A DNA stretch of 59,760 bases, from NCBI GenBank assembly GCA_027485815.1, contig JAIXQE010000216.1:1-59760 (forward strand), read 5' to 3'. The notes under the pieces are model-generated. The model saw only the letters and a program-made list of their open reading frames with translations. It did not search any database and was not told the DNA's origin. The position numbers and the translations under genes were made by a program. Below are positions 11,181-25,169 of the stretch, in pieces. The stretch's first letter is position 1. Each line of letters opens with the position of its first letter. Source of the DNA: Opitutaceae bacterium. Lineage in GTDB: Bacteria > Verrucomicrobiota > Verrucomicrobiia > Opitutales > Opitutaceae.

Positions 11181-14100
11181 TCAGGGAATGATCAGGTCGG
11201 CGCTGACCTGACCGATCGGATCCACGGCCCAGACGCGGGCGGGACCCTTGGTCATCACGTAGGCGCGGACCGCACCAGACCCGGGCCGTAAACCCGGGTT
11301 GGCCATCCCGGTCCGGATATAGACCAACCACTCGGTCGCGTAGGGACCCGCCACCAAGCCGCTCCCCAGATCAGCGACGTACACCTGCAGTTGGTTGCGC
11401 CCGAAACACTCGCTGGCGGCCTTCAGCGTGTAATAGTAGCGGGCGGTGTTGGAGACCACCGTGGGCACGCAGCCCACCGTCGGCGCCGGGTGTAACGGCT
11501 CCGCCGCCACCGGGTTGGACTGGCACAGCTCATCCCCGTTCGCCTGGGCCGGCCGCACCACGTAATGGTACACTTGGTTCAGGATTCCCGGGTGATCCAG
11601 ATACGTCTGCGGCAAGGCGGCCGGGACTGATCCCACCTTCACGTAGGGCCCTCCCGCCACCGTGCCGCGATAAATGTGGTACGCGTCCACCCCCGGATAG
11701 GGACCGGTGCCCACCGGCCAGGACCAGCTGAGCTGCACCTCCTTGAGCAACGGCACGGCCGCGAGGTTCACGCACTGGCCGGGTCCGGCCTCAACGAAAA
11801 CCTGCGCCACCGTCGTGCTGCTCAGATCCCCCGAACCGCTGCTCGGGTACGAGGTGGCCGTGGTGTCGGTCACCCGCAGCCGAATCAGATAGCTGCCTGC
11901 CCCGCGGGCGCTGAAATGGGCCGTCACGTCCGGGGTCGGGCCCGTCGCGTCATCGAAGTCGCCATCCCCGTCCAGATCCCACGCGAAGAGCTGCAGGCGA
12001 TCGCCGGGATAGGCCGGCAGGTGGGGCTCACTTTGGCCTTCGTCCGGATTCACGGAGCGCGTGCCGTCGAGGAACCAGGGTTTGCTGTCCGGGAAGAAGA
12101 TATAGGGCCCATTGGCGTCGGCGGTGGGGGCCAGCGGTGGGGTGGTTACACGGACGGTCAGGATCGTCTCGGCGGTCTTCTCGGGCACACCGTTATCGGT
12201 CACGATGAGGCGGACGAGGTGGTGGCCGAGGCTGGCGAAAGTGGCGGTGGCGAAGGCGCCGGTCAGGTCGATGGTACCGTCGTTATTCAGGTCCCAAGCC
12301 CAGGAGTCGATCGCCTTGGTCGCGTCCTGGTGGTAAGAATCGCTCCCATCGAGGGTAACCGTCTGCCCCGAGACCGATGGATTAGGAATCGAACGGGCGA
12401 CCGCCACGGGGGCGCCGCTTTCAAAGAGGGTGCGTTGGAGCATCATTACTGCCCACGCAGTCTCGAAGGGGTATTGCTCGGAGGAGTAGTTGTGCGCCCG
12501 CCAATAGCCGCCGGGGCTCTGGTCATTGACGAGCGTGCGGGCGACGCCGTCGGTCGGCGCCCCGCGGCTGGTCTCCGCGGCGTACCAGTCGAGCTCGGGC
12601 ACGCCCGCGTGGGTGGAACGGAGGAGTTTGATCTGCCCACCGACCCCGGGGTGCAGGAGCATCGACTTCACGAAGGAAAAGAGGCCGTAGTAGTAATCCT
12701 TGATGGCATAATAGGGTCCCCCGGTGTTGCCAAAATTGTCGCGGAGATAGCCCTCCGCGGCTTCCCAACTCGGGACGCCCCCGCTGCCCCGGCCCAAACC
12801 GACCAGCGCCATCTGCACGAGGCCTGAGGGCGTGCTCGCATACGGGCCCCAAGCGTACGAACCCGGTGCGGTGTAGCCGAAGGGCCCCGCGGGGACCTGA
12901 CTGTAGGCCAGCCAATTGGTGTTCGCCGTCTTCACCCAGTTGGGAATCGTGCACCCCCAAGAGCGTTCCGCCGCGATGAGGCCGATCGCCGCCCACTGAC
13001 ACGCAGAGTTGTCCGGAAAATCATTGGCGCTGTAGCGCCAGCCACCGTAGCGCGCGTCATCGTACTGGGCCCACGCGTGGTCATCGACCATGTCCTGCAC
13101 GATCGACCGGTAAGTGCGGCCCCGGATGCCAGGGTTGGCGCCCGCCCCCGCCAAGCCGGTGACCGTGACCGCATCGGGCGTGCCGCTGGCGACGATCGCG
13201 TCGATGATCATCCCGCCCTGATAGTACTGGTAGGATTGGTTAAGCACGACCCCATAGCCGTTGCCGTTGGTGTCGGGATTACCGAGGGCCTGCGGGATGA
13301 TCGTGCGCGTCGTCAGAGTCTCGAAGAGACGGCGGAGCCCACGGCCGACGGTCTCCGTATAGGGATTGGTGGCCGGTCCGGTCTCGAGGTGGCCGTTGAC
13401 CTCGAACGCCGTGACGTTCGCAGCCCATAAGCCGTACCAACCCGAGCTCGCGTAGCCCGAGCTATTCCAATCGCCCAAGTCCACCCCGGATGCGGTGAAG
13501 CGATGCTGCGTCTTGTGGAGGTACCAGAGCCCCTCGTCGATCGCGACGTTCACCTCCGCCGCGAGGGTCTTTTCCTCCATCGCCACATAGTACTCGGCCG
13601 AGCCGGATTCCCCGGTGGCGGGATTGTGGACCGTCAGGCGGGCGGTGTAGACCGTGCCCACCGGACCCGCGTACGTGTGGGTCGCCTCCAGCACGTACCG
13701 GTTGGAGACCGACCCGGTCGCGACCGGCGTGCCGTCCCCGAAATCCCAGGCCCATTGCAAGTTCACGCCTTCCTGATCGCAAACACCCTTCAGCGTGATG
13801 GCCCGGCCCGCAAAGGTGGAATGCGGGATCAGGGGCTTGTTCGCGACCCACGGCACCGTCCGGACCACCGGCAGGGCCGCCTGCAGCCCGCCGGCCAGTC
13901 CCAGGGCGAGGAGCGGACCAAACCAGCGCCGACGCCGGCGCCAAGCCAGGGCGGCGGTGATCACCGCCAGCAGGAGCCCGAGCGTCGTCGTCCGCTCCGG
14001 CACCGAAGGCACCTGCGGCCCGCCATTCAACGCCAGTTCGCCGAAGCCGAACCCGTCCGGTAGCGTGTTGAGCCCGGTGAAAGTCACCGAGATCAGGTCC

Positions 14101-14630
14101 GGCGCCCCCGCGCGCACCCCGAAGGCCAGACCACGGGCCCCGCCTTCACCCTCCACGGACCAACCATCGAGCAGCAGGGATTCGACGCCGTTCGAGGCCG
14201 TGACCGAGAAGTTGGCCGGACCGAAGAAATTCGGCTCCATAAAGAGCGAGAAGACCCGCGTCCCGACGGGGAGGGCCAGGGTCATCGTCGATCGGCCCAG
14301 CAGCAGCTCATCCCAATACAACACGTCGCCGGCGTAGCCGTGACTCCAGTTTTCCCACCCTTGGCCGATCCGCAGCAGTTCGAGTGGGCCGTCAAAGACC
14401 GCCTGACGCCCTCCGGGAAACTCCACCGTGTCGACCGCCGAGCCGATGCTGGCGGAAGAAGCCAGCGCCGCGACCAGCGAGTAGCCGCCCAAATGCGCGG
14501 GCGGCGCGACCTGACCCAAGTCCCAAGCATCCATCGCTCCCGTCGAAACCACCAACGTTGCCCCCGGGAGTGGAAGCGACAAAAGCGCGCCAATCCCAAA
14601 CTTAGCCACCAATGATGATATTTTTTTCAT
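11181..14630 (-). CDS. large secreted PKD/toroid protein with an internal PEP-CTERM-like signal (apparent gene fusion)
   Basis: The 1149-residue protein begins with a signal peptide (to about residue 23). Residues 24-205 resemble a PEP-CTERM-type surface domain; residues 210-235 are a sorting-signal look-alike: VPERTT, a hydrophobic stretch 217-230, then five arginines. Such signals belong at a C-terminus, yet the frame continues into a second secretion-like hydrophobic segment (236-252), a PKD domain (about 262-352, with WDFGDG), an alpha-helical region with prenyltransferase/squalene-cyclase-like repeats (about 358-735, for example AIDEGLWYLHKTQ, GGWRYSANDFPDNSACQW), two further PKD-like domains (742-948; WDLNNDGTID, WDLDGDGDFD), a fibronectin III-like domain (955-1045) and a C-terminal module. 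It looks like two exported proteins joined in frame. An in-frame GTG (13962-13964) could start a separate second protein. Function unknown, probably cell-surface carbohydrate or adhesion related. Confidence 0.75.
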   Translation of the reverse strand: MKKISSLVAKFGIGALLSLPLPGATLVVSTGAMDAWDLGQVAPPAHLGGYSLVAALASSASIGSAVDTVEFPGGRQAVFDGPLELLRIGQGWENWSHGYAGDVLYWDELLLGRSTMTLALPVGTRVFSLFMEPNFFGPANFSVTASNGVESLLLDGWSVEGEGGARGLAFGVRAGAPDLISVTFTGLNTLPDGFGFGELALNGGPQVPSVPERTTTLGLLLAVITAALAWRRRRRWFGPLLALGLAGGLQAALPVVRTVPWVANKPLIPHSTFAGRAITLKGVCDQEGVNLQWAWDFGDGTPVATGSVSNRYVLEATHTYAGPVGTVYTARLTVHNPATGESGSAEYYVAMEEKTLAAEVNVAIDEGLWYLHKTQHRFTASGVDLGDWNSSGYASSGWYGLWAANVTAFEVNGHLETGPATNPYTETVGRGLRRLFETLTTRTIIPQALGNPDTNGNGYGVVLNQSYQYYQGGMIIDAIVASGTPDAVTVTGLAGAGANPGIRGRTYRSIVQDMVDDHAWAQYDDARYGGWRYSANDFPDNSACQWAAIGLIAAERSWGCTIPNWVKTANTNWLAYSQVPAGPFGYTAPGSYAWGPYASTPSGLVQMALVGLGRGSGGVPSWEAAEGYLRDNFGNTGGPYYAIKDYYYGLFSFVKSMLLHPGVGGQIKLLRSTHAGVPELDWYAAETSRGAPTDGVARTLVNDQSPGGYWRAHNYSSEQYPFETAWAVMMLQRTLFESGAPVAVARSIPNPSVSGQTVTLDGSDSYHQDATKAIDSWAWDLNNDGTIDLTGAFATATFASLGHHLVRLIVTDNGVPEKTAETILTVRVTTPPLAPTADANGPYIFFPDSKPWFLDGTRSVNPDEGQSEPHLPAYPGDRLQLFAWDLDGDGDFDDATGPTPDVTAHFSARGAGSYLIRLRVTDTTATSYPSSGSGDLSSTTVAQVFVEAGPGQCVNLAAVPLLKEVQLSWSWPVGTGPYPGVDAYHIYRGTVAGGPYVKVGSVPAALPQTYLDHPGILNQVYHYVVRPAQANGDELCQSNPVAAEPLHPAPTVGCVPTVVSNTARYYYTLKAASECFGRNQLQVYVADLGSGLVAGPYATEWLVYIRTGMANPGLRPGSGAVRAYVMTKGPARVWAVDPIGQVSADLIIP

Positions 14631-14951
14631 AGCAGGATAGGTTTTTAACCCTATCCTGCAGGACTCGAACCAGTCTGCGCACAGGTTCCTGATGACAACT
14701 TATCGTCAATAGGTTGCGTTTAAATTTAACCAAACGCCGGCGCGGACGCCGGTCGGTCGGTGGCCCGGGTGTCAAAATTACCGCCACTTAATGGCGATAA
14801 AAACCCCGCACGACTCGCTAACCCCGTTTCCACGCGGGAGTTAGAGCCGGAGCAGGGAAAGCCGCGGAGTGTCGCCCGGCTTTACGCGGGTTGCACCCCG
14901 GTCCGACCGCCGGGAAGAGCCGGCGGCGGAGGACTCGGCCCCGAGCGGGGC
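14631..14951. promoter_or_regulatory. 321-bp AT-richer control region upstream of the secreted fusion protein
   Basis: No gene seen. It holds three inverted repeats: a perfect 10-bp hairpin abutting the start codon (14632-14659, listed separately), an interrupted palindrome GCGTTT...AAACGC (14716-14737) around an AT-rich centre, and CCGGCG/CGCCGG (14737-14752). CGCCA/TGGCG (14782-14796) followed on the minus strand by a T-containing run may be a weak end for nrdA. A minus-strand TTGACA lies at 14770-14775, without a convincing -10 partner. Much of it probably controls the minus-strand gene starting at 14630. Confidence 0.4.
14632..14659 (-). promoter_or_regulatory. perfect hairpin directly before the start codon
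   Basis: GCAGGATAGG (14632-14641) and CCTATCCTGC (14650-14659) are exact inverted repeats with an 8-nt loop. The stem ends one base before the ATG of the minus-strand gene at 14630. The upstream arm as transcribed contains the only SD-like purine run (AGGATAGG), so the structure would pair it away. It may be an mRNA control hairpin or an operator. Confidence 0.5.
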
Positions 14952-17900
14952 TTACTGGCAGGCTTCGCAGGTTTCCCCGCGGCGCATCGCCTCGATGCTG
15001 CAGGCCTTCTTCTCCTCCTCGGAGAACTCGCGCTTGGCGGCGGGCTTGGCCTCGGTCTCGGCGGCGATGCCGCGGACCTCCTTCTTGGCGGCGACGGTGG
15101 CCTTCTCGATGTTGGAGGCGCCGAGGCTGCGGAGGTAGTAGGTGGTCTTGAGCCCCGTGTGCCACGCGTGCCGGTACATGTGGCTCAAGGTCCGGAGGTC
15201 GGGCGTCTTGATCCAGAGGTTCACCGACTGGGCCTGATCGATCCATTTCTGGCGGCGCGCGGCGGCGTCGACGATCCACTTGTGGTCGATGTCGAAGGCG
15301 GTGAGGTACTTGGCCTTGAGGTCGGCGGGGATCCGCTCGATGTCCTTCAACTCGCCATCGAAGTACTTGAGGTTGTCGATCATGTCCTGATCCCACAGGC
15401 CGCGGGCCTTGAGGTCCTTCACCAGGAAGGGGTTCAGGACGATGAACTCACCCGAGAGGTTCGATTTGACGAAGAGGTTCTTATACGTCGGCTCGATGCA
15501 GGGAGACGTGGCCGTGATGTTCGAGATGGTCGCGGTGGGGGCGATCGCGAGGCAGTTCGAGTTCCGCATGCCCTGGCGGGCGATCTTCTGGCGGAGCGGG
15601 GTCCAGTCCATCCGGCCGCCGCGGGGCACTTCGACGGGCAGGCCGCGTTCCTGCTCCAGCAGGTCGAGGGTATCCTGGGGCAGGAGTCCGCGATCCCACT
15701 TCGAACCCTTGTAGCTGGAATAGGTGCCGCGTTCCGCCGCGAGGTCGGAACTGGCCTCGTAGGCATAGAAGGCGACGGCCTCCATCGCCTCATCGTTGAA
15801 GTCAACCGCCTCCGGGGAAGCGAAGGCGTGCCCCCGGAGATACAGCGCGTGCGCCAGGCCCATCACTCCCATCCCGATCGGCCGGTGACGCAGGTTGGAC
15901 ACCTTGGCCGCCTCCGTGGGGTAGAAGTTGATGTCGATGACGTTGTCCAAGGCCCGGACCGCGGTGCGGACCGTCTCGCGCAGCTTGTCGTGGTCGAGGG
16001 ACCCGTCCGGCTTGAGATGCGTCTCCAGGATCACGGAGCCGAGGTTGCAGACCGCGGTCTCCTCATTGCTGGTGTTGAGGGTGATCTCGGTGCAGAGATT
16101 GGAGGAATGGATCACGCCCACGTGATCCTGCGGCGAGCGGAGGTTGCAGGCGTCCTTGAAGGTGATCCAGGGATGGCCGGTCTCGAAGAGCATCGAGAGC
16201 ATCTTCTTCCAGAGCTCCAGCGCCTCGATCTTCTGGCCATGGATGCGACCCTCCTCGGCCATACGCTCATATTCCAGGTAACGGCGCTCAAAGGCGGCCC
16301 CGTAGAGCTCGTGCAGGTCCTTGACCTGGTTCGAACGGAACAGCGTCCAGTGCTGGCGCGCCTCCATCCGCTTCATGAACAGGTCCGGGATCCAGTTAGC
16401 CGTGTTCATGTCGTGCGTCCGCCGGCGGTCATCGCCCGTGTTCTTGCGGAGCTCGAGGAACTCGAAGATGTCGTTGTGCCAGGTCTCCAGGTAGGCGCAG
16501 CCGGAGCCCTTGCGCTTGCCCCCCTGGTTGACGGCGACGAGCTGGTCGTTGTGGAGCTTGAGGAACGGGATGACGCCCTGCGACTCGCCGTTGGTGCCGG
16601 AAATGTAGGCTCCGGTGCCGCGCACCGCGGTCCACGACCCGCCCAGGCCGCCGGCCCACTTGGCGAGGAACGCGTTGTCGGCGATGCCGCGGAGCATGAT
16701 GCTCTCGAGGGAATCGTCGACGTAGTAGAGGTAGCAGGAGGAGAGCTGGGAGTGGAGCGTGCCCGAGTTGAAGAGCGTGGGCGTGCTGCTGCAGAAACGG
16801 CGGCTCTTGTAGAGGTCGTAGAGCCCCGCGACGCGGGCCTCCCGGTCGCCCTGCTCGTCGAGCATCAGGCCCATCGCGACGCGGAGCCAGAAGTACTGGG
16901 GCGTCTCGAGGCGGCGCGAGGGCTTCCGGGTCTTGTCGATGATCAGGTAGCGGTCGTAAAGCGTCTGGATGCCGAGGAAGTCGAACTCGAGGTCCGAGGA
17001 GGGATCGAGGACCGCGGCCAGGCGCGACAGATCATAATCGAGGAGGCGGGGGTTGAGCCGCTTGATGGCGACCCCGTGCTCGAGGTACTTGCGGAAGCCG
17101 CGCTGGTGGGCCGCCTTCAGGGCGCCGATGCCGTCGCGCAGGATGTCCCAACCGAGGACCTCCTCGTAGATGTAGGTCAGCTGGATGCGGCCGGCGAACT
17201 TGGCGAAGTCGGCATCGCGCTCGATCAGGGTCTTCGAATTGAGGACGATGGTGGCGTCGAGGTCCTTCTGGCTGATCTGGTCGTAGACCGAGCGGCGGAG
17301 CTCGGCCTCGATCTCGTCGTTGGAGAGGCAGAGGTCCAGGCCGATGCGGGCGAACTCGATCCGGCGGCGGAGATCCGACCCGTCCCAGAACACGTTGCTG
17401 CCATCGGCGCTCTTCACGACGATCATCGCGGCCTGGCCGGCGGCGACGGGCGCCACCTCGGGGGTGGCGGCCGGGGTCTCCAACCCGAGATCGCGCGCAG
17501 CGGCCCGCTGGGCCCGGAACAGGATGTAGGCCTCCGCCACCTTGAAGTGACCCGCCTTCATCAGCTCCTCCTGCACCATGTCCTGGATCTCCTCGATGTG
17601 GATGAAGGACTGCTTGGAGGAATGCACCCGCTGGGAGACGGCGGCGGTGATCGCGACGGCCGGCGCGGAATCCCGCTGCAGGGAAAGGAACGTCTTCCGG
17701 ACCGCGATCTCCACCTTCTGCTCGCTCCAGGGCACCACCTGGTTGTTGCGGCGGATCACCCGCAGCGTCGACACGGCCGCCGCCTCCCGGTCCACCGCGA
17801 TCTTCCGGGCCCGATTCAACAGGAGGCTCTTGGCGACGAAGTACGCGTTGTTGTCGACCAGGGTCTTCTCGATCAGCTCATACAGGGCGTTGAGCGACAG

Positions 17901-18227
17901 CCGCACCGGCGCCTGGCGCCGGGCCAACTCGCCGAGGTGGCCGGCGACCTCCCGGCAGATCTTCGCGACCCAGAGGCGATTCTGCTCGGTGAAGATCTCC
18001 TTCTCGCCCCGGGCGAGATGCACGTTCGTCAGGGCCTTGCCGAGGGTGTCCGCCACCTCCGCGAGGGCGAAACGCTCCTCCCCGTGCGGGCACAGCAGCA
18101 CGATCTCGGGCACCGTGATGCCCTGACCCGCGATCACGTCGCGCCACGCATAATGGGGCTTCTGCTCGACCGGAGCGTGGACGGTGCGTTTGAGGGCGAG
18201 ATCGTGGGCCAGCGAAGGGTGACTCAT
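14952..18227 (-). CDS. nrdA: ribonucleoside-diphosphate reductase class I alpha subunit with several ATP-cones
   Basis: This 1091-residue protein reduces ribonucleotides to deoxyribonucleotides, with the radical supplied by NrdB. It is much longer than E. coli NrdA (761) because of about 330 extra N-terminal residues. These hold a clear ATP-cone (about 153-242, from STLRVIRRNNQVVPWSEQ), a second one at about 268-350 (IVVKSADGSNVFWDGSDLRR onward) and, before them, a degenerate helical region (about 50-140) that may be a third. The catalytic core shows SNLCTEITLN with the N-x-C-x-E active-site pattern, CNLGSVIL, and the C-terminal redox cysteines in GETCEACQ. The start MSHPSLAHD was preferred over an upstream ATG that would add a proline-rich tail. 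It is downstream of nrdB on the same strand. Confidence 0.96.
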   Translation of the reverse strand: MSHPSLAHDLALKRTVHAPVEQKPHYAWRDVIAGQGITVPEIVLLCPHGEERFALAEVADTLGKALTNVHLARGEKEIFTEQNRLWVAKICREVAGHLGELARRQAPVRLSLNALYELIEKTLVDNNAYFVAKSLLLNRARKIAVDREAAAVSTLRVIRRNNQVVPWSEQKVEIAVRKTFLSLQRDSAPAVAITAAVSQRVHSSKQSFIHIEEIQDMVQEELMKAGHFKVAEAYILFRAQRAAARDLGLETPAATPEVAPVAAGQAAMIVVKSADGSNVFWDGSDLRRRIEFARIGLDLCLSNDEIEAELRRSVYDQISQKDLDATIVLNSKTLIERDADFAKFAGRIQLTYIYEEVLGWDILRDGIGALKAAHQRGFRKYLEHGVAIKRLNPRLLDYDLSRLAAVLDPSSDLEFDFLGIQTLYDRYLIIDKTRKPSRRLETPQYFWLRVAMGLMLDEQGDREARVAGLYDLYKSRRFCSSTPTLFNSGTLHSQLSSCYLYYVDDSLESIMLRGIADNAFLAKWAGGLGGSWTAVRGTGAYISGTNGESQGVIPFLKLHNDQLVAVNQGGKRKGSGCAYLETWHNDIFEFLELRKNTGDDRRRTHDMNTANWIPDLFMKRMEARQHWTLFRSNQVKDLHELYGAAFERRYLEYERMAEEGRIHGQKIEALELWKKMLSMLFETGHPWITFKDACNLRSPQDHVGVIHSSNLCTEITLNTSNEETAVCNLGSVILETHLKPDGSLDHDKLRETVRTAVRALDNVIDINFYPTEAAKVSNLRHRPIGMGVMGLAHALYLRGHAFASPEAVDFNDEAMEAVAFYAYEASSDLAAERGTYSSYKGSKWDRGLLPQDTLDLLEQERGLPVEVPRGGRMDWTPLRQKIARQGMRNSNCLAIAPTATISNITATSPCIEPTYKNLFVKSNLSGEFIVLNPFLVKDLKARGLWDQDMIDNLKYFDGELKDIERIPADLKAKYLTAFDIDHKWIVDAAARRQKWIDQAQSVNLWIKTPDLRTLSHMYRHAWHTGLKTTYYLRSLGASNIEKATVAAKKEVRGIAAETEAKPAAKREFSEEEKKACSIEAMRRGETCEACQ

Positions 18228-18261
18228 GGCGGCGGAAGGGAACGGCGGAGCGGGAGGGACG

Positions 18262-18293
18262 AAAAACGGCGACCCCTCCAAGGCGGAGGGGTC
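18262..18293 (-). terminator. terminator or attenuator between nrdB and nrdA
   Basis: GACCCCTCC (18271-18279) and GGAGGGGTC (18285-18293) form a perfect 9-bp stem with a 5-nt loop. On the minus strand it is followed by GCCG and five Ts. It sits 61 bp after the nrdB stop and about 35 bp before the nrdA start, so it should reduce read-through from nrdB into nrdA. Confidence 0.65.
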
Positions 18294-18354
18294 AGGAAAT
18301 GGGGGGACGAGGCGGGAACGAGGCGCGGCGGCGGGGCGGATCGGGGACGGAGGC

Positions 18355-19440
18355 TCAGAGGTCGTCGTCGCGGACGGGGTTGAGGGCGGAGGCCTTCTGG
18401 TACTCCGTGACGCGACCCTCGAAGAAGTTCTGCTCCTTCTTGATGTCCATCATCTCGGCCAGCCAAGGCAGGGGATTCTTCACCCCCGGGGAGAGCGGCG
18501 CCAGCCCGCAGCTCTCCAGCCGCCGGTCGGCGATGTAATCGATGTAAGTGATGAAGTCCTCGGCGGAGAGGCCGATCGAGTTCACCGGCAGGCAATCGCG
18601 GATGAACTCCTTCTCGAGCTCGACCGCCTCGTGCATCAGGCCGCGGAGCTCGTCCTTGAACTCGGGCGTCCAGATCTCGCGATTCTCGTCGACCAGGTCC
18701 ATGAACAGGTTCCGGAAGACCTCGATGTGGTTGGACTCGTCGCGCAGGGTGTAGCGGAACATCTGGCCGATGCCCGGGAACTTGTTCTGGCGATAGAGCG
18801 AGAGCACCATCCCGAACAGGCCGTAGAACTGGGTGCCCTCCATGCACTGGCCGAAGACGAAGACATTGCGGGCGAGCAGGCGCTTGTTCTCCGGGAGCGT
18901 CAGGTCGAGGTCGCGGCGCAGCGCGCGGGAGGTGCGGGTGACAAACTCGTTCTTGCGCAGGATCGTCGGGATATCCTCGAACATCGCCTCGCACTCGTGC
19001 GGGTTGATCTGCAACGAGGAGATCATGTACAGGAGCGAATCCGCATGGATGTTCTCCTCGTGCGCGTGGCGGCCGAGCACCAGCTTGAGCTCCGGGGCCG
19101 TCACCAATTCACGCACCACGTGCTGGATGTTGTCCCCCACGATCCCCTCGGCCGCGGAAAAGTAACCGATGCCCATCCGGATGATCCACCGCTCGACCTC
19201 CGACACGGTCTTCTCGTCCCGCCACTGCTCGATGTCCTTGCCCATCGGGATGTCCTCCGGCTCCCAATGGTTGGCCTTCATCGTCCGGTAGAGATCGTAG
19301 GCCCACTGGTACTTGAGCGGCAGCAGGTTGAAGGTCATCGACTCCCGGCCATTGATCACCTGCTTGGCGGCGAAGGCGGCCTCGGCTTTGGTCTGGTCGA
19401 GGACGAAGGACTTGGCGCCGATCTGGAAGGACTTCTGCAT
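18355..19440 (-). CDS. nrdB: ribonucleotide reductase beta subunit, class Ic-like (radical tyrosine replaced by leucine)
   Basis: The 361-residue ferritin-like subunit that makes the radical or oxidised metal cofactor for NrdA. Start MQKSFQIGAK was chosen because the 46 upstream in-frame residues read through the promoter region. Metal ligands can be placed: E98 (SAAEGIVGDN), E129 and H132 (EENIH), E201 (MEGTQFYG), E235 and H238 (RDESNHIE). The position four after the histidine, the tyrosyl-radical site in E. coli (Y122), is L136; Y138 lies two further on, as in the chlamydial protein. The first ligand is glutamate rather than aspartate, again as in chlamydial class Ic. This points to a Mn/Fe cofactor rather than a tyrosyl radical. 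The C-terminus ends LNPVRDDDL. Confidence 0.94.
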   Translation of the reverse strand: MQKSFQIGAKSFVLDQTKAEAAFAAKQVINGRESMTFNLLPLKYQWAYDLYRTMKANHWEPEDIPMGKDIEQWRDEKTVSEVERWIIRMGIGYFSAAEGIVGDNIQHVVRELVTAPELKLVLGRHAHEENIHADSLLYMISSLQINPHECEAMFEDIPTILRKNEFVTRTSRALRRDLDLTLPENKRLLARNVFVFGQCMEGTQFYGLFGMVLSLYRQNKFPGIGQMFRYTLRDESNHIEVFRNLFMDLVDENREIWTPEFKDELRGLMHEAVELEKEFIRDCLPVNSIGLSAEDFITYIDYIADRRLESCGLAPLSPGVKNPLPWLAEMMDIKKEQNFFEGRVTEYQKASALNPVRDDDL

Positions 19441-19827
19441 GGTGCGGGGAGGGTCGGGAAGGAGCGGAGGAACGGGCTTTTCAGCGACGAGGCGGAGGGG
19501 GGCGATGCTAAGTTGTTGGAAGTTATTGACGCCCTCTTGACCACAACGGGCTGTGGTCATTCCTCGCGCCGACCACAAGCGATGGGAATCGCCCCGGGAC
19601 CCGTCAATCGTGGAGGCGAAAAAGTCCGTAAATTTTCCCTAAAAATCTGCTTGCGAGAAAACACCCCTCTTTTCCGTCCGCCCAAGCCCCGGCCACGTGT
19701 ATCCGCCGCGTATCTACACGGCCCCGGGGGACCGGGGCGAGAGGGGGTGCGGACCGGGCCTCCCGACTGTCGCCAGAAACCAGCGACAGCGGCGGCTCCG
19801 GCCCGGTCCGGGGCGCCCCGCGGGCGC
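19441..19827. other. gene-free stretch between nrdB and the Oar-like receptor
   Basis: About 390 bp without a credible gene. It holds the inverted repeats listed above and an AT-rich patch (19618-19680), a likely place for the nrdB promoter, although I could not find a clean -35/-10 pair. The rest is GC-rich sequence without a recognisable signal. Confidence 0.5.
19539..19577. promoter_or_regulatory. candidate operator upstream of nrdB
   Basis: GACCACA (19539-19545) and TGTGGTC (19552-19558) are exact inverted repeats with a 6-bp spacer, and a third GACCACA lies at 19571-19577. The cluster is about 100 bp upstream of the nrdB start. By position it could bind NrdR or another repressor, but the core does not match the usual NrdR-box consensus, so the protein is unknown. 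Confidence 0.4.
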
Positions 19828-19860
19828 AAAAAAAGGCGGGCCGCCCACGGCGGCCCGCCT
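19828..19860 (-). terminator. rho-independent terminator of the Oar-like TonB receptor gene
   Basis: AGGCGGGCCGCC (19834-19845) and GGCGGCCCGCCT (19849-19860) form a perfect 12-bp stem with a 3-nt loop. On the minus strand the stem runs straight into seven Ts (19828-19834 as As on plus). It lies 23 bp past the receptor stop codon. Confidence 0.92.
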
Positions 19861-19883
19861 CGCGTTACCGGTCTCGGCCGGGC

Positions 19884-22800
19884 TCAGAAGCTGAGCCGCG
19901 CCCCGAGCTGGATGCGCCAGCGGGACATGCCGTTCTCGATGTTGAAGCCGACCGGCTCCGAGGTGTAGGTCGGGCGGATGCGGCCGTCGGTACCGTAGGC
20001 GGTCGCGTTGGTGAGGGTGCGCGTGCGGAACACGCCATTGCTCAGGAAGGGCGAGACCTCGTTGTAGCCGAAGAAGTCCTTGCTGAGGAAGGCACCCAGG
20101 TTGATGAAGTCGAAGAACAGGTCGAGGCGCACGCGGCCGGCCAGCGGGATGTTGTGCGCGACCTTGAGGTCGAGGCGGTTGACCCACGGCTCGGTGAACG
20201 CGTTCTTGGGCGCGATGCCGCCGGCGTAGGCCGAGAGCTCGCTGCCCTGCACGAAGGCGAGGAACGCGTCGCGCTGCGCCGGGGTCATCCCGGAGAAGTC
20301 GAAGCGCGGATCATTGATCCCGCTCGGCACCGCGACCGTGTCATTGAAGGAGACGCTGTCGCCGTTGAGGTCGCCGCCGAAGACCCAGCTGTAGGGGTTG
20401 CCCGTGCGGCCCTCGTAGGAGACGGAGACGCGCGTGCGCTGGCCCTTGATCAGGTTGAAGTCGCGGGTGACCGCCGCCAGCACGCGGTGACGGATCTCGA
20501 AGTCCGCCGTGCCCTCGGTGACGGTGTTCTGGTTGAACACGACATTGCGGTTCCACTGGCCGCCGGCCGTCGTCTGGCCGATCGCCTGGGCCTCGGTCGC
20601 CGAGCCGTGCGTGTAGGAGAGGTCGAAGCCCCACTTCTGCTTCACCGGACGGGACCAGTTGAGGCTGAAGTAGGTCGACTCACCGACGGAGGCGTTGCGC
20701 ACGCGGATCAGCGTGGTGTAGCCGGCGAACTTCGCATTCGCGGCCGTCGAGGGGTTGCCCGCGAAGCGCTGGCGGCCGTCGGCGCCGACGGTGGTCGCGC
20801 GGATGTTCTCGTTGGTCACGAAGATCGCCTGATCGACGATGCTGTGCACCACCTCGAACCCGAGGACGGAATCGAACAGCGGGACCTTGCGCTCGATCGC
20901 CAGGTTCGCGCGCCACGACTGGGGCAGCTCGGTGCCCGCGTCGATCCAGTTCACCTCGCGGCGCAGGGTCGGGACGTCCTTGCCCGTGCCGATCGGGTTG
21001 GCGGGGTCGAAGGCGGTGCGGAGGTAGCCGGTGAGCGTGTTCGGGAGTTCACCCTGCGCGGACGCGAGGGTGAAGCCGCCGACGCCCGTCTGGCCAAAGG
21101 AGTTGGAGAAGATCACCCACGGGGCACGGCCGAAGAAGTGGCCCACGCCGCCGCGGACCTGCAGCCGGCGTTCCTCGTCGAGCGCCAGGTTGAAGCCGAG
21201 GCGCGGCGAGAAGCTGTTGGAGCCGTCGGGGGTCGCATCGTTGCGGAAGCCGGTCGCCGCGAGGAAGGCCTGGTTCAGCGCGGGCCGGATGCTGGTGTCC
21301 ACGAGCTCCACGCGCACGCCGCCGGTGAGGGACAGCCGCGCATTCACGTCCCACTTCGCCTGGGCGAAGAGACCGGTGGTGGTCAGGTCCGAGATGTCGG
21401 CGACCGGGCGGGCGGCCGGGTCGTAGGCGTTGCGCTCGATGACCGCGTTGGTGTCCGCGAGGAAGTCCGCGAACGTCCGGTAGGCGACGCGGCCGTAGGA
21501 GCCCTGCCGGAACAGGTTGTAGAAGTCGGTCTGCTCCCGCTCGAAACCGCCGGAGAACACGAAGTTCTTCCAACTGTAGGTCGCAATCGCGCTCATCTGC
21601 TGGCTATCCACCGCGATCACGTTGCCATGGCGGAACTGCTCGGTGCCGGCGACGTAGCCACCATTGGTGATGGTCGAGCCGTTGACCTGGTTCACGCCGG
21701 TGACGCCCGCGATGAGGATCATCGGGGAGACGGTGTTGAGGGGCGTCTGCTGGTCCTGCTTGGTCGAGGAATACTTCAGCTCGGTGGAGAGGTTGCGGGT
21801 CCACTGGCTGTTCAACTGGCCGGCGATGGTCTTCTCCTCGCGGGTCTGAGCGTAGAAGTGGCCGTCGGAGGAGGTGGTGATGCCGGCGGAGACGCCGTTC
21901 AAGGTCAGCGAGGAGCTGGCGAAATTGCCGAACTGCGGCACCTCACCCTCGGTGGTGGTGTAGCGGAGGCTCAGGCGGTGGTCCGCGGTGACGTTCCAGT
22001 CGACCTTCGCGCTGAACTTCTTGTCCGTGGCGATGTTCGCGGTCTGGCCGGTGACGGCGCCGCCCCAGTTGATGGTGCGGCCCGCGGCCTGGGAGATCTG
22101 GCCGAGGCGCTGGAGGATCTGGGACTCCTGGCCGGTGAGGAAGAGCGGGTCGCGACCGGCGCTGGTGCTCTCGAAGTCCTCGTAGGAGACGAAGAAGAAC
22201 AGGCGATCCTTCAGGATCGGGCCGCCGAGGGTGGCGCCGAGGGTCTGGCGCTCCAGGCGGGGCGTGAACTTGGTGCCGTTGAGGGCGTTCTCGCGCGGGT
22301 TGTAGCCCTGCAGCTTGAAGCCGAGCAGCTCGTCCCCGCGGAAGTAGGTGTAGACCGAGCCGCGGAACTGGTTGGTGCCGGACTTGGTGACGGCGTTGAT
22401 CGAGGCGCCGGTGAAGCCGGCCTGCCGGACGTCGTAGGGCGAGACCTGCACCGCCAGCTGCTCGATGGTGTCGAGCGAGAGCGGATTGAAGAACGAGGCC
22501 AGGCCGGTGCCATTCAGACCGAAGAGGTCGTTGATCCGGGAGCCGTCGATCTGGATCGAGTTGTACCGGTTGTTCTGGCCCAGCGCGGTGATCTGGGACT
22601 CCTCGCGGTCGCCGAAGGTCTCGCGCAGGGTGACCAGCGGGGAGGCGCTGATCATGTCCGCCAGCGAGCGCTCGGAGGTCGGGCGGGACTCGAGGCGCTC
22701 GGACGAGAGGGTGACGCCCGCACCGGTGGCGGAGCCGTCGAGGTCGGACTTCGACGCCGTGGCGACGAAGCGCTCGAGGACGACGACATCCGACTTGAGG

Positions 22801-23135
22801 GTGATGTTCACGTCAATGTCCGTGCCCAGCTGGGTGAACACCTCCGAGGAGGGGGTGCCGCTGAAGCCGGCCGCGGTGGCGGTCAGGGAGTAGGGCCCGC
22901 CGACAGGAAGACCCCGCAGGTTGTACCGGCCACCCTCCGAGGTGACGGCGGAGAAACGCGCGTTGGTCGGCGTGTAGACGGCGCTGACGGTCGCCCCGGC
23001 CACGGGCTTGCCCGTGGTGTCGCGGACCAGGCCGGAGACGCCGGCGGTGGTGAGCTGCGCCCGCGCGGACGGGACGAGGAAGCCGGCCCAGAGGGTCAGC
23101 AACGTGATCAGAGGTCGGAGGAACGGAGTTTGCAT
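19884..23135 (-). CDS. TonB-dependent receptor with carboxypeptidase-regulatory-like N-domain (Oar-like)
   Basis: A 1083-residue outer-membrane protein. A signal peptide (to about residue 26, ARAQ) is followed by a carboxypeptidase regulatory-like beta-sandwich (VSGLVRDTTGKPVAGATVSA; residues about 33-110), then a plug domain (SDLDGSATGAGVTLSSERLE to AINAVTKSGTNQFRGSVY, about 130-265) and a long beta-barrel ending in the aromatic C-terminal residue (IQLGARLSF). The SGTNQFRGS motif and overall length match Oar-like receptors that transport large or unknown ligands, sometimes peptides. It is a single gene with its own terminator, divergent from the TPR gene. Substrate cannot be told from sequence. 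Confidence 0.9.
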   Translation of the reverse strand: MQTPFLRPLITLLTLWAGFLVPSARAQLTTAGVSGLVRDTTGKPVAGATVSAVYTPTNARFSAVTSEGGRYNLRGLPVGGPYSLTATAAGFSGTPSSEVFTQLGTDIDVNITLKSDVVVLERFVATASKSDLDGSATGAGVTLSSERLESRPTSERSLADMISASPLVTLRETFGDREESQITALGQNNRYNSIQIDGSRINDLFGLNGTGLASFFNPLSLDTIEQLAVQVSPYDVRQAGFTGASINAVTKSGTNQFRGSVYTYFRGDELLGFKLQGYNPRENALNGTKFTPRLERQTLGATLGGPILKDRLFFFVSYEDFESTSAGRDPLFLTGQESQILQRLGQISQAAGRTINWGGAVTGQTANIATDKKFSAKVDWNVTADHRLSLRYTTTEGEVPQFGNFASSSLTLNGVSAGITTSSDGHFYAQTREEKTIAGQLNSQWTRNLSTELKYSSTKQDQQTPLNTVSPMILIAGVTGVNQVNGSTITNGGYVAGTEQFRHGNVIAVDSQQMSAIATYSWKNFVFSGGFEREQTDFYNLFRQGSYGRVAYRTFADFLADTNAVIERNAYDPAARPVADISDLTTTGLFAQAKWDVNARLSLTGGVRVELVDTSIRPALNQAFLAATGFRNDATPDGSNSFSPRLGFNLALDEERRLQVRGGVGHFFGRAPWVIFSNSFGQTGVGGFTLASAQGELPNTLTGYLRTAFDPANPIGTGKDVPTLRREVNWIDAGTELPQSWRANLAIERKVPLFDSVLGFEVVHSIVDQAIFVTNENIRATTVGADGRQRFAGNPSTAANAKFAGYTTLIRVRNASVGESTYFSLNWSRPVKQKWGFDLSYTHGSATEAQAIGQTTAGGQWNRNVVFNQNTVTEGTADFEIRHRVLAAVTRDFNLIKGQRTRVSVSYEGRTGNPYSWVFGGDLNGDSVSFNDTVAVPSGINDPRFDFSGMTPAQRDAFLAFVQGSELSAYAGGIAPKNAFTEPWVNRLDLKVAHNIPLAGRVRLDLFFDFINLGAFLSKDFFGYNEVSPFLSNGVFRTRTLTNATAYGTDGRIRPTYTSEPVGFNIENGMSRWRIQLGARLSF

Positions 23136-23170
23136 GCGCTTGGTTTGGTTCGGTGTAGGCCCAAACCGCT

Positions 23171-23199
23171 AGGTGAGCCTCCGCCCTCTGGGGAGTCAA
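23171..23199 (-). promoter_or_regulatory. possible promoter of the Oar-like receptor
   Basis: On the minus strand TTGACT (23199-23194) matches five of six -35 positions and is followed after 17 bp by a poor -10 (TCACCT, 23176-23171). The distance to the ATG at 23135 is reasonable. Weak. Confidence 0.25.
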
Positions 23200-23315
23200 G
23201 GCAGCGGGCGGCGCGATTCCGGGGGCCGCCGGCTTTGACCCAACCGTAACTTGACGCCAATCCGCCGCGAAAAAGTTTCCCTCGCGCTCCCCTGCCCCCT
23301 TGCCTCGCCGCCCCG

Positions 23316-25169
23316 ATGCCCTCCGTCCCCCGCCCGTCCCCGCCGCCCGGCCCTTCCGCCGGAGCGGACGGCCCGCGGCTGGCCTGGGGCGCCGCCGCCA
23401 TCGTCCTGCTGTCGTTCGCCGTGCTTCCCGCGTTGCCCGGGCCCCTGGTGCTGGACGACGGGCCGGCCCTGGACCTCGCGCGCCAGATCGCCGGACCGGC
23501 TGGATGGATGGAAGCGTGGCGCCCCGGCGCGGATCCGGGTGAAACCCTGCGCGGCCGCCCCTTGGCCGCGTGGTCCTTTGGCCTGCAGGCCGCCGTCGAC
23601 CTTGCCTCCCCCGTGGCGCTGCGCTTGGTCAATGCGCTGCTGCACGCCGGAGCCGCGGCGGTGCTGGCCGGACTGGTCCGGCGCACCTTGGTCCGCCTGC
23701 ACTGGGCACCGGCCGCCGCGGGGCGAACGGCGGCCTTGGCCGCCCTGATCTGGCTGGTCCATCCCTTGGCGCTGTCCGCGGTGGTGTACGTCGTCCAACG
23801 TGCCGAGGTGCTGGCGGGCCTGGGGATGCTCGCGGCGCTGGCGGCCTTTGCGCGCGGAATGGAGAGCTCCCGGCCGGGACCTTGGCTGGTCGCGTCGGCA
23901 GCGGCCGGTTGGGCGGCCCTCCTGGCGAAGGAGAGCGCGGCGGGACTGCCCCTGCTGGTGGCGCTCTACGACCGCTGCTTCGTGGTGGATTCGTGGCGGG
24001 CAGTCTGGCGGGCGCGCCGGGGCTACTATCTGGCTCTGGCCGCCGGCTGGCTTCCCCTCGCGGCGCTCGTCGCCGCAGGCGCCGGACGCGGCGGGACCGC
24101 GGGGTGGGATAGCCCGATCGGCGTGGGCGCCTACCTCCTGACCCAAGGGGAAGCCGTGGCGGGCTACCTCTGGCACGTGCTCTGGCCCCACCCCTTGGTT
24201 TTCGACCACGGGCCCGTGGTCGCGAGTCTGCCCGGCGCCTTGGTCCCCGGCGGCCTGGTCCTCGCCCTGCTGGCGGCTTCCGTCTGGGGCGTCTGGCGCG
24301 GGCATCCCCTGGGTTTCGCGGGGGGCGCGTTCTTCCTGAGTCTGGCCCCGTCCTCCAGTCTCGTGCCGGTGGCCTCCCAGACGATCGCGGACCACCGGAT
24401 GTATCTCGCCCTCGCGGCCCCGGTGGCGGTGCTGGTGGCCTGGGCGTGCCGACGCGCGCCGCTCGGCGGGGGCCTCGCGGCCGGAGCGGCGGCACTGGTC
24501 CTGACCGGCGTCTCCGCCGCCCGCCACGGGAGTTACCGGGACGAAGTGACCCTCTGGGCCAAGACCGCCGCCCGCCGGCCGGATAATCCGCGCGCCCACC
24601 ACAATCTCGGGCAGGCGATCTTCGCCCGGGGAGATCCGGCGGCGGCGGAGCCGCATTTCCGCGCCGCCGAGCGCCTTCGGCCCGGCGATCCCGACACGCG
24701 CCACAACCTCGCCCTCTGCGCCCTGCGCCTCGGCCGGGCGGAGGAGGCCCGCGCCCTCCTCGAGGCCAACCTCGCCCGCGCGCCCGACCACGCCCCCACC
24801 CCGCTCGCCCTGGGCGAGGTTCGCGGGGAACTCGGCCGGCAAGCGCTGGCGGCCGGGCGCCGGATGGAGGCCCGGGAACACTTCGCCGCCGCCGCCGCCC
24901 TCCGCCCGCGGGACCCCCGCCCACGCCATAACCTCGGCAACCTCCTGCTCGAGCAGGACGCCGTCGAGGCCGCCCTCGCCGCCTGGCGCGAGGCCCTCGT
25001 CGCGGATCCGGGCTTTGGGGAATCGCGGCGCGCCCTCGCCCTCGTCCTGCTGCGCACCGGACGCGCGGCGGAGGCGGTCCCCCACCTTGAGCGCCTCGCG
25101 CGCGACGAACCAGGGCGGGCGGACGTCCGCGCCGCCCTCACCGAGGCCCGCCAGGCCGCGGGCCGCTGA
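23316..25169 (+). CDS. multi-pass membrane protein with C-terminal TPR repeats
   Basis: A 617-residue protein. After a proline-rich N-terminus come about ten hydrophobic helices (roughly residues 22-400), including a loop of the type seen in O-mannosyltransferase/TMTC-like proteins (GPLVLDDGPALDLARQ near the start; LIWLVHPLALSAVVYVVQRA; SLAPSSSLVPVASQTIADHR with MYLALAAP). The last roughly 200 residues are tetratricopeptide repeats (PRAHHNLGQAIFARGDPAAA, PDTRHNLALCALRLGRAEEA, PRPRHNLGNLLLEQDAVEAA). Relatives are usually annotated only as TPR proteins; a glycosyltransferase role is suggested by the fold but not shown. The stop is 13 bp before recQ, so the two may be co-transcribed. Confidence 0.75.
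   Translation: MPSVPRPSPPPGPSAGADGPRLAWGAAAIVLLSFAVLPALPGPLVLDDGPALDLARQIAGPAGWMEAWRPGADPGETLRGRPLAAWSFGLQAAVDLASPVALRLVNALLHAGAAAVLAGLVRRTLVRLHWAPAAAGRTAALAALIWLVHPLALSAVVYVVQRAEVLAGLGMLAALAAFARGMESSRPGPWLVASAAAGWAALLAKESAAGLPLLVALYDRCFVVDSWRAVWRARRGYYLALAAGWLPLAALVAAGAGRGGTAGWDSPIGVGAYLLTQGEAVAGYLWHVLWPHPLVFDHGPVVASLPGALVPGGLVLALLAASVWGVWRGHPLGFAGGAFFLSLAPSSSLVPVASQTIADHRMYLALAAPVAVLVAWACRRAPLGGGLAAGAAALVLTGVSAARHGSYRDEVTLWAKTAARRPDNPRAHHNLGQAIFARGDPAAAEPHFRAAERLRPGDPDTRHNLALCALRLGRAEEARALLEANLARAPDHAPTPLALGEVRGELGRQALAAGRRMEAREHFAAAAALRPRDPRPRHNLGNLLLEQDAVEAALAAWREALVADPGFGESRRALALVLLRTGRAAEAVPHLERLARDEPGRADVRAALTEARQAAGR

Follow-up and report, generated by a model that had tools for sequence, protein, structure and literature searches.

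The window analysed here, a stretch of 59,760 nucleotides (positions 1 to 59,760 of contig JAIXQE010000216.1, assembly GCA_027485815.1, from an Opitutaceae bacterium), carries on its reverse strand the gene pair of a class I ribonucleotide reductase. The first gene, nrdB (18355–19440), encodes the small subunit R2 in an uninterrupted frame of 361 amino acids with an ATG start. The large-subunit gene, nrdA (14952–18227), lies 3' of it in the same orientation, with nrdB heading the pair; all features given below are on this strand. The absence of the usual radical tyrosine from NrdB suggests that the enzyme uses its metal centre, as the chlamydial enzyme does. NrdB scored 226 bits against Pfam PF00268 (cut-off 33.6) and 332 bits against NCBIfam NF005550 (cut-off 309), and the hallmarks of a class I R2 were all found: the PF00268 fold, six ligands for a dimetal site, the C-terminal relay Tyr347 and a partner nrdA. 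In NrdA, one ATP cone was detected by Pfam, and C497, C711, C726, a YY dyad and a C-terminal CxxC (P0002 numbering, initial Met omitted) are present, which we take to be the catalytic and relay residues.

The residue register was obtained by aligning NrdB to the R2c of Chlamydia trachomatis (CtR2c, 1SYY). Leu136 (codon 19033–19035) stands opposite F127 of CtR2c, at the position which we take to be that of Y122, the radical tyrosine of E. coli NrdB. A preliminary description of this DNA, made from its letters alone, had proposed this leucine and suggested an alignment with chlamydial R2 as a check; the alignment places no tyrosine at the site. The same description had listed six ligands beginning with a glutamate, and its list stands, numbering included: Glu98 (19147–19149; E89 in CtR2c, Asp in Tyr-type relatives), the E129-x-x-H132 motif (19045–19056; E120 and H123), Glu201 (18838–18840; E193) and the E235-x-x-H238 motif (18727–18738; E227 and H230). 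Trp59 (19264–19266; W51) and Tyr230 (18751–18753; Y222), which we take to be an electron-relay and a relay residue, respectively, are present as well, and Asp234 corresponds to D226. The subunit-to-subunit relay tyrosine, Tyr347 (18400–18402; Y338), belongs to a C-terminal position described as conserved in R2s (PMC8463856).

To judge conservation, 80 close relatives were gathered from a contig scan; they are the best 80 of at least 585 loci and were hence picked by similarity. L136, Y138, Y230, W59, D234 and Y347 are unchanged in all 80, which means that leucine at the radical site is neither chance nor an assembly slip, and all six ligands are kept in 79. The sole exception, L165, has Gln instead of the Glu ligand at 201, either a sequencing error or real. 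Across the phylum, 90 of the 288 Verrucomicrobiota genomes sampled have an R2 match at E 0.001 or better; every match of at least 71% identity contains EENIH(A/T)DSL(L/V)Y, and a Phe-type group (39–42% identity) and Asp/Tyr types were found in other families. With no tyrosine there, NrdB cannot form a tyrosyl radical at the usual site.

The radical pocket differs from that of the chlamydial enzyme at further positions, on which the preliminary description was silent: T203, Q204 and T231 set the Leu clade apart near the metal site. Thr231 (18748–18750) lies four residues before the ligand E235 and takes the place of Ile223 in CtR2c. Thr203 (18832–18834) is clade-specific, with Ile or Met in the Phe-type rows of the alignments. 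When position 231 was compared with the paralogues and L064 held apart from the Leu group, Thr was found in 67 Leu-type rows, and Ile in 15 Phe-type and seven Asp/Tyr rows. A count over 186 rows, which omits L001–L003 and L025 and in which near-duplicates remain, gave Thr231 in 151/151 Glu/Leu rows and Ile231 in 12/12 Glu/Phe rows; among the 23 Asp/Tyr rows, 15 have Ile, four have Ser and four show a gap. Ten extra plasmid rows were Glu/Phe/Ile (three), Asp/Tyr/Ile (five) or Asp/Tyr/Ser (two). Among 21 viral rows, 20 were Glu/Ile/Thr or Glu/Val/Thr and one was Asp/Tyr/Ile. Thr231 is present in every aliphatic-site row examined (151 Leu and 20 viral Ile/Val). These rows are related and Thr231 requires only two changes on the tree, so the link amounts to at most two independent cases. 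Judged by these residues, three sets can be told apart, namely Glu/aliphatic/Thr (the Leu clade and the viral enzymes), Glu/Phe/Ile (class Ic) and Glu/Tyr/Thr (class Id). We equate position 231 with Ile269 of yeast Y2, a correspondence presumed from the numbering of the yeast ligands. This isoleucine is named among three residues lining the radical pocket (PMC3824934). In the class Id R2 of L. blandensis, Thr294, four residues before the ligand E298, is described as hydrogen-bonding the non-radical Tyr (PMC6754362), and Thr191 of F. johnsoniae as filling the same part (PMC8463856).

Three trees of 108, 53 and 54 rows were built with the site columns excluded, each of them with flagged long branches. 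The rows came from plasmids, viruses and Verrucomicrobiota, supplemented by three chains of known structure and a phage record that is mislabelled; the Phe-type genomes G042, G054 and G152 had matched in the phylum sample but were left out. For the 108-row tree, the duplicates L001–L003 and L025 and nine Asp/Tyr loci were omitted, the 80 close-relative rows were thinned to six, and eight genus rows to one. The 54-row set differs from the 53-row set in that eight Leu rows were dropped; the additions were seven Tyr-less rows and one Asp/Tyr row from viruses, as well as a paralogue. The Leu type forms one clade apart from the chlamydial Phe clade, with support of 90/88 (53 rows) and 97/99 (54 rows), and joining the two was rejected by the approximately unbiased (AU) test (p 0.011 and 0.007, respectively). 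All AU p values given here are optimistic, given the flagged long branches and the naming of the groups only once a first tree had been built. With 53 rows, one of them viral, the test did not reject one clade uniting all Tyr-less R2s (p 0.069); with 54 rows, of which eight were Tyr-less viral, it did (p 0.0009). The two sets differ in other rows too. A single clade of all aliphatic-site R2s is not the best tree but was unrejected (p 0.071, 54 rows). The Phe group of 6Y2N lies with the Asp/Tyr Pseudomonas-type R2s. From these topologies, it would seem that the tyrosine was either lost several times or regained in the Pseudomonas line. In earlier work, R2c was polyphyletic according to Lundin 2010, as cited in PMC3824934, and monophyletic on fewer sequences in PMC3824934 itself. 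A reconstruction in PMC9816063 assigns class Ic to the last common ancestor of the chlamydiae.

The preliminary description had assigned NrdB to class Ic, and this assignment survives in part. The radical Tyr is absent, the first of six ligands is Glu, and among solved structures the best matches are class Ic proteins; on the other hand, the site holds Leu rather than Phe, and in the R2 phylogeny which the description had called for, the Leu type stands as its own clade outside that of CtR2c. The outcome depends on usage. Class Ic is paired with Phe/Glu in the review PMC8463856, a broader use of R2c admits Leu, Ile and Val at the site (PMC3824934, citing Hogbom 2010), and Glu as first ligand is given as the class Ic rule in PMC4118035. 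If class Ic stands broadly for a missing Tyr and a Glu ligand, the label is right; if it stands strictly for the Phe/Glu pairing and a place in the chlamydial clade, the label is doubtful. R2c proteins with Leu at the radical site were on record before; the separate lineage and the linked Thr231 are the additions of this analysis. All closely related rows gathered have Leu, the AU test rejects the chlamydial grouping and Thr231 accompanies the leucine, so the Leu type is more than a chlamydial enzyme with a single swap. By sequence comparison, it is a lineage of its own with a linked Thr, a pattern common to the viral Ile/Val enzymes.

The best solved relatives by sequence were CtR2c (E 2.4e-78) and then 6Y2N (E 5.8e-71), the R2c of Saccharopolyspora erythraea. 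An AlphaFold2 model (mean pLDDT 75.3) was used for fold comparison only, and no atomic distances were taken from it; a first model from a shallow alignment (mean pLDDT 51.7) was poor and was discarded. The best fold match was C. trachomatis NrdB (Z 30.3, rmsd 2.6, 280 aligned), followed by 6Y2N (Z 28.9), E. coli class Ia (about 25–27) and class Id (about 25). This comparison of a predicted fold supports membership of the R2 family and cannot identify the metals.

We propose with moderate confidence that the oxidant in NrdB is the metal centre, most likely as Mn(IV)/Fe(III), in place of a tyrosyl radical at the usual site. In the proposed mechanism, O2 would oxidise the dimetal centre held by E98, E129, H132, E201, E235 and H238, and the resulting high-valent centre, for which Mn(IV)/Fe(III) with site 1 occupied by Mn is the likeliest form, would itself act as the oxidant. 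The hole would travel via W59 and Y347 to the tyrosine pair of NrdA and then to a cysteine. Leu136 would be a redox-inert filling, and the room freed where the aromatic ring is missing may, with Thr231, house a water near metal 1 for proton transfer. We infer the metal identity, the water and the relay, as well as the repression considered further below.

The metal-centred reading is supported by the closest solved structures, which by both sequence and fold are those of the Mn/Fe R2c of C. trachomatis, and a Mn/Fe cofactor in NrdB, which the preliminary description had proposed, appears likely, although a sequence by itself cannot reveal the metals. Several points weigh against it. T231 and T203 make the pocket of NrdB unlike that of CtR2c, and T231 matches class Id (Mn2), not chlamydial class Ic (Ile). 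Since the Leu clade is separate and its union with the chlamydial Phe clade was rejected, Mn/Fe use cannot simply be transferred by orthology. The Asp/Tyr Pseudomonas-type R2s branch nearer CtR2c than NrdB does, which makes closeness to CtR2c a poor predictor of the cofactor. Furthermore, proteins with Fe/Fe, Mn/Fe and Mn/Mn sites all use this ligand set (PMC4118035).

It can tentatively be proposed that the aliphatic-site R2s (Glu, Leu/Ile/Val and Thr231) are a distinct functional subclass with its own metal or proton chemistry, and that the Pseudomonas line may have descended from a metal-only ancestor and regained the radical Tyr. The second part of this idea arises because the Tyr-less R2s are not one clade and the Asp/Tyr Pseudomonas-type enzymes branch among them. 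A dimanganese variant seems unlikely: NrdB would then resemble class Id in having a Mn2(III,IV) cofactor that superoxide or peroxide activates, and Leu would replace the non-radical Tyr. The Glu first ligand and a Thr four residues before E235, in the place of class Id Thr294/Thr191 (PMC6754362, PMC8463856), would fit such a site, and no aliphatic-site row examined lacks this class Id-like Thr. However, the class Id Lys at +4 and Trp at +7 from the first ligand, a rule given in PMC6754362, are Gly102 and Ile105 in NrdB; class Id retains its Tyr and is reported to need it for activity (PMC8463856), and the fold match is lower (Z about 25 vs. 30). It is improbable that the oxidant is a diiron centre or that a metal-promiscuous site uses whichever metal is available. 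The shared ligand set mentioned above speaks for this possibility, but the counterpoint concerns the chlamydial protein, not the Leu clade.

A radical borne by another tyrosine, for example Y138 two residues after the site, is more improbable still. The preliminary description had aligned Y138 with a chlamydial tyrosine, rightly (it is Y129 of CtR2c), and its presence in all 80 close relatives and in the chlamydial enzyme could be read in favour of such a role. It is not fixed in wider kin, however: His replaces it in the 49%-identical homologue of G047, in both tandem paralogues and in 15 of the 20 Tyr-less viral rows (His or Met in 17 of the 20). In addition, C. trachomatis has the same Tyr, yet its oxidant is described as metal-based (PMC8463856).

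The host genome (4.08 Mb in 232 contigs) is 97% complete, and all searches in it are to be read at this completeness. One R2 gene was found. A second PF02867 protein was sought and only the single one was found; neither NrdD nor an RTPR-type class II reductase gave a match. The nrdB-nrdA pair is the only ribonucleotide reductase detected in this incomplete genome, and NrdB is presumably active since no other was detected. Therefore, it is hardly credible that NrdB is not a working reductase subunit (a decayed gene or an R2-like oxidase), even though its radical Tyr is absent and R2-like oxidases also lack one (PMC3824934): the sole R2 gene is intact and adjoins nrdA, R2lox models score far below cut-off, and Tyr347, which R2lox lacks (PMC3824934), is present. 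On the same grounds the pseudogene was rejected, the gene being intact and the only reductase detected, and so was R2lox, none of whose five NCBIfam models scored above 47 bits against cut-offs of 194 to 346.

Within the host genus, the R2 model matched in 25 of the 27 genomes, 23 of them above the model cut-off. An RTPR-like (adenosylcobalamin-type) class II match, below the curated cut-off, was found in eight of the 10 genomes given to the search, which were the host genome and nine without an R2 match. These matches, in the Opitutaceae genomes G010, G080, G099, G143, G283, G075, G361 and G364, lie in open frames of 727–889 amino acids. G010 belongs to the same genus as the host; neither an NrdB-type R2 nor a PF02867 protein was found in it, and the RTPR-like match present there suggests that the family is able to swap out the enzyme. 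Among named records, metagenome-derived Opitutia/Opitutaceae genomes are the nearest, and the R2 in L094 is 98% identical.

Upstream of nrdB, a box consensus was used to search for NrdR sites, and a putative pair was found. Box 2, a near-palindromic 16-mer, CCACAGCCCGTTGTGG (19541–19556), ends 100 bp before the start codon. A 16-bp spacer separates it from box 1 (19573–19588), which is a poor palindrome with only its right half well kept, and a conserved -35-like element, TTGACG (19602–19607), lies upstream of the boxes. Among 79 relatives with at least 200 nt upstream, a CACW-N6-WGTG core was found within 400 nt in 69, and 100–150 nt from the start in 58, compared with an average of 0.22/79 in this zone for shuffled upstream regions. 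In 57 of these 58, the box-1 half site (loose pattern) is exactly 32 bp from the core, and TTGACG precedes the core in 57 as well. In the genome, CCACANNNNGTTGTGG has one exact occurrence, and when up to one mismatch is allowed, the box pattern has fewer matches than its reversed control (9 vs. 57). These counts therefore do not demonstrate genome-wide enrichment, and the case for the boxes rests on conservation and spacing. For most bacteria, the published rule is a pair of NrdR boxes separated by 15–16 bp (PMC12051234). NrdR is encoded in the host genome and probably represses nrdB-nrdA when dATP is high. An Rfam scan of 14000–24000 returned 0 matches.

Two genomes of one related genus, G116 (L033 4218-10030) and G207 (L034 3312-9417), each carry a second R2 gene, 52–53% identical to the first, between nrdB and an open reading frame (ORF) of 1,149/1,153 amino acids, presumably nrdA. 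This second R2 keeps the six ligands, Leu136, the relay Trp, the C-terminal Tyr and an acidic tail, with Y138 replaced by His and Y230 by Asn. Between the two genomes, the NG86 estimates are dN 0.106 and dS 0.973, which suggests purifying selection; the protein could be a heterodimer partner. Its best other match among 252 Opitutaceae genomes is 61% identical, the level of an ordinary R2. Opitutaceae-type R2s also occur on contigs labelled Rubrivivax (L093, 100% identical), Akkermansia muciniphila (L127, 86%) and Planctomycetaceae (L136, 88%), which are probably mis-binned or mislabelled metagenome contigs. L184 (CAKLQH020000007.1), filed as an Acinetobacter phage, has ordinary bacterial genes around nrdAB and is probably a bacterial chromosome.

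Discussions of class I ribonucleotide reductases that work by metal alone usually centre on chlamydia. In the present case, a large bacterial clade known mostly from metagenomes appears to depend on a metal-only reductase with a different radical pocket. The exchange of Leu/Thr for Phe/Ile would offer a clean mutant pair for the role of the second shell in metal choice and proton transfer, and the tree bears on the question of whether metal-only enzymes have arisen several times or whether a lineage can regain the tyrosyl radical. The literature searches made, which covered open-access papers only, brought up no paper on a class Ic R2 from Verrucomicrobiota, so this absence means little; the residue names had no match in PMC11883743, and PMC7251102 mentions the enzyme in its reference list alone.

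Compared with known systems, class Ie was rejected for NrdB, as it requires replaced ligands and all six are present. The class O ferritin-like proteins are similar in that Phe or Leu is reported at the radical site, but as minimal enzymes of an ancestral clade (PMC9531940) they are set apart by description only. Pseudomonas/Acinetobacter-type R2s (L181, L184) share the relay residues and motif layout, but have an Asp first ligand with Tyr, the class Ia pairing. The viral R2s (L217–L234, L185 and L186; IMG/VR) resemble NrdB in the Glu first ligand, the Ile/Val at the site and Thr231, and differ in their 35–38% identity, a separate branch in the best tree and a Y138 that is mostly His. In one of the viral records, L229, an 825-aa ORF upstream of R2 carries NrdA motifs (motifs only). 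Class Id R2s (L. blandensis 6SF5 and F. johnsoniae 6CWP; Mn2(III,IV)) share the Glu first ligand, the Thr four residues before the last-motif Glu and the lack of a stable Tyr radical; in contrast to NrdB, with Leu136, Ile105 and Gly102, they keep the Tyr, the Trp at +7 and, in the studied subgroup, the Lys at +4. The R2 of 6Y2N has a Glu first ligand, no radical Tyr and the relay residues, but its site is Phe/Ile rather than Leu/Thr and it groups with the Asp/Tyr Pseudomonas-type. The C. trachomatis class Ic R2 (1SYY, 4D8F, 4M1I; Mn(IV)/Fe(III)) shares with NrdB the six ligands, the Glu at the first of them, the lack of a radical Tyr and the fold; its W51, Y129, Y222, D226 and Y338 have equivalents in NrdB, and the two are 36–40% identical in structural alignments. 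It differs in having Phe127, Ile223, Ile195 and Phe196 where NrdB has Leu136, Thr231, Thr203 and Gln204, and in belonging to a separate clade.
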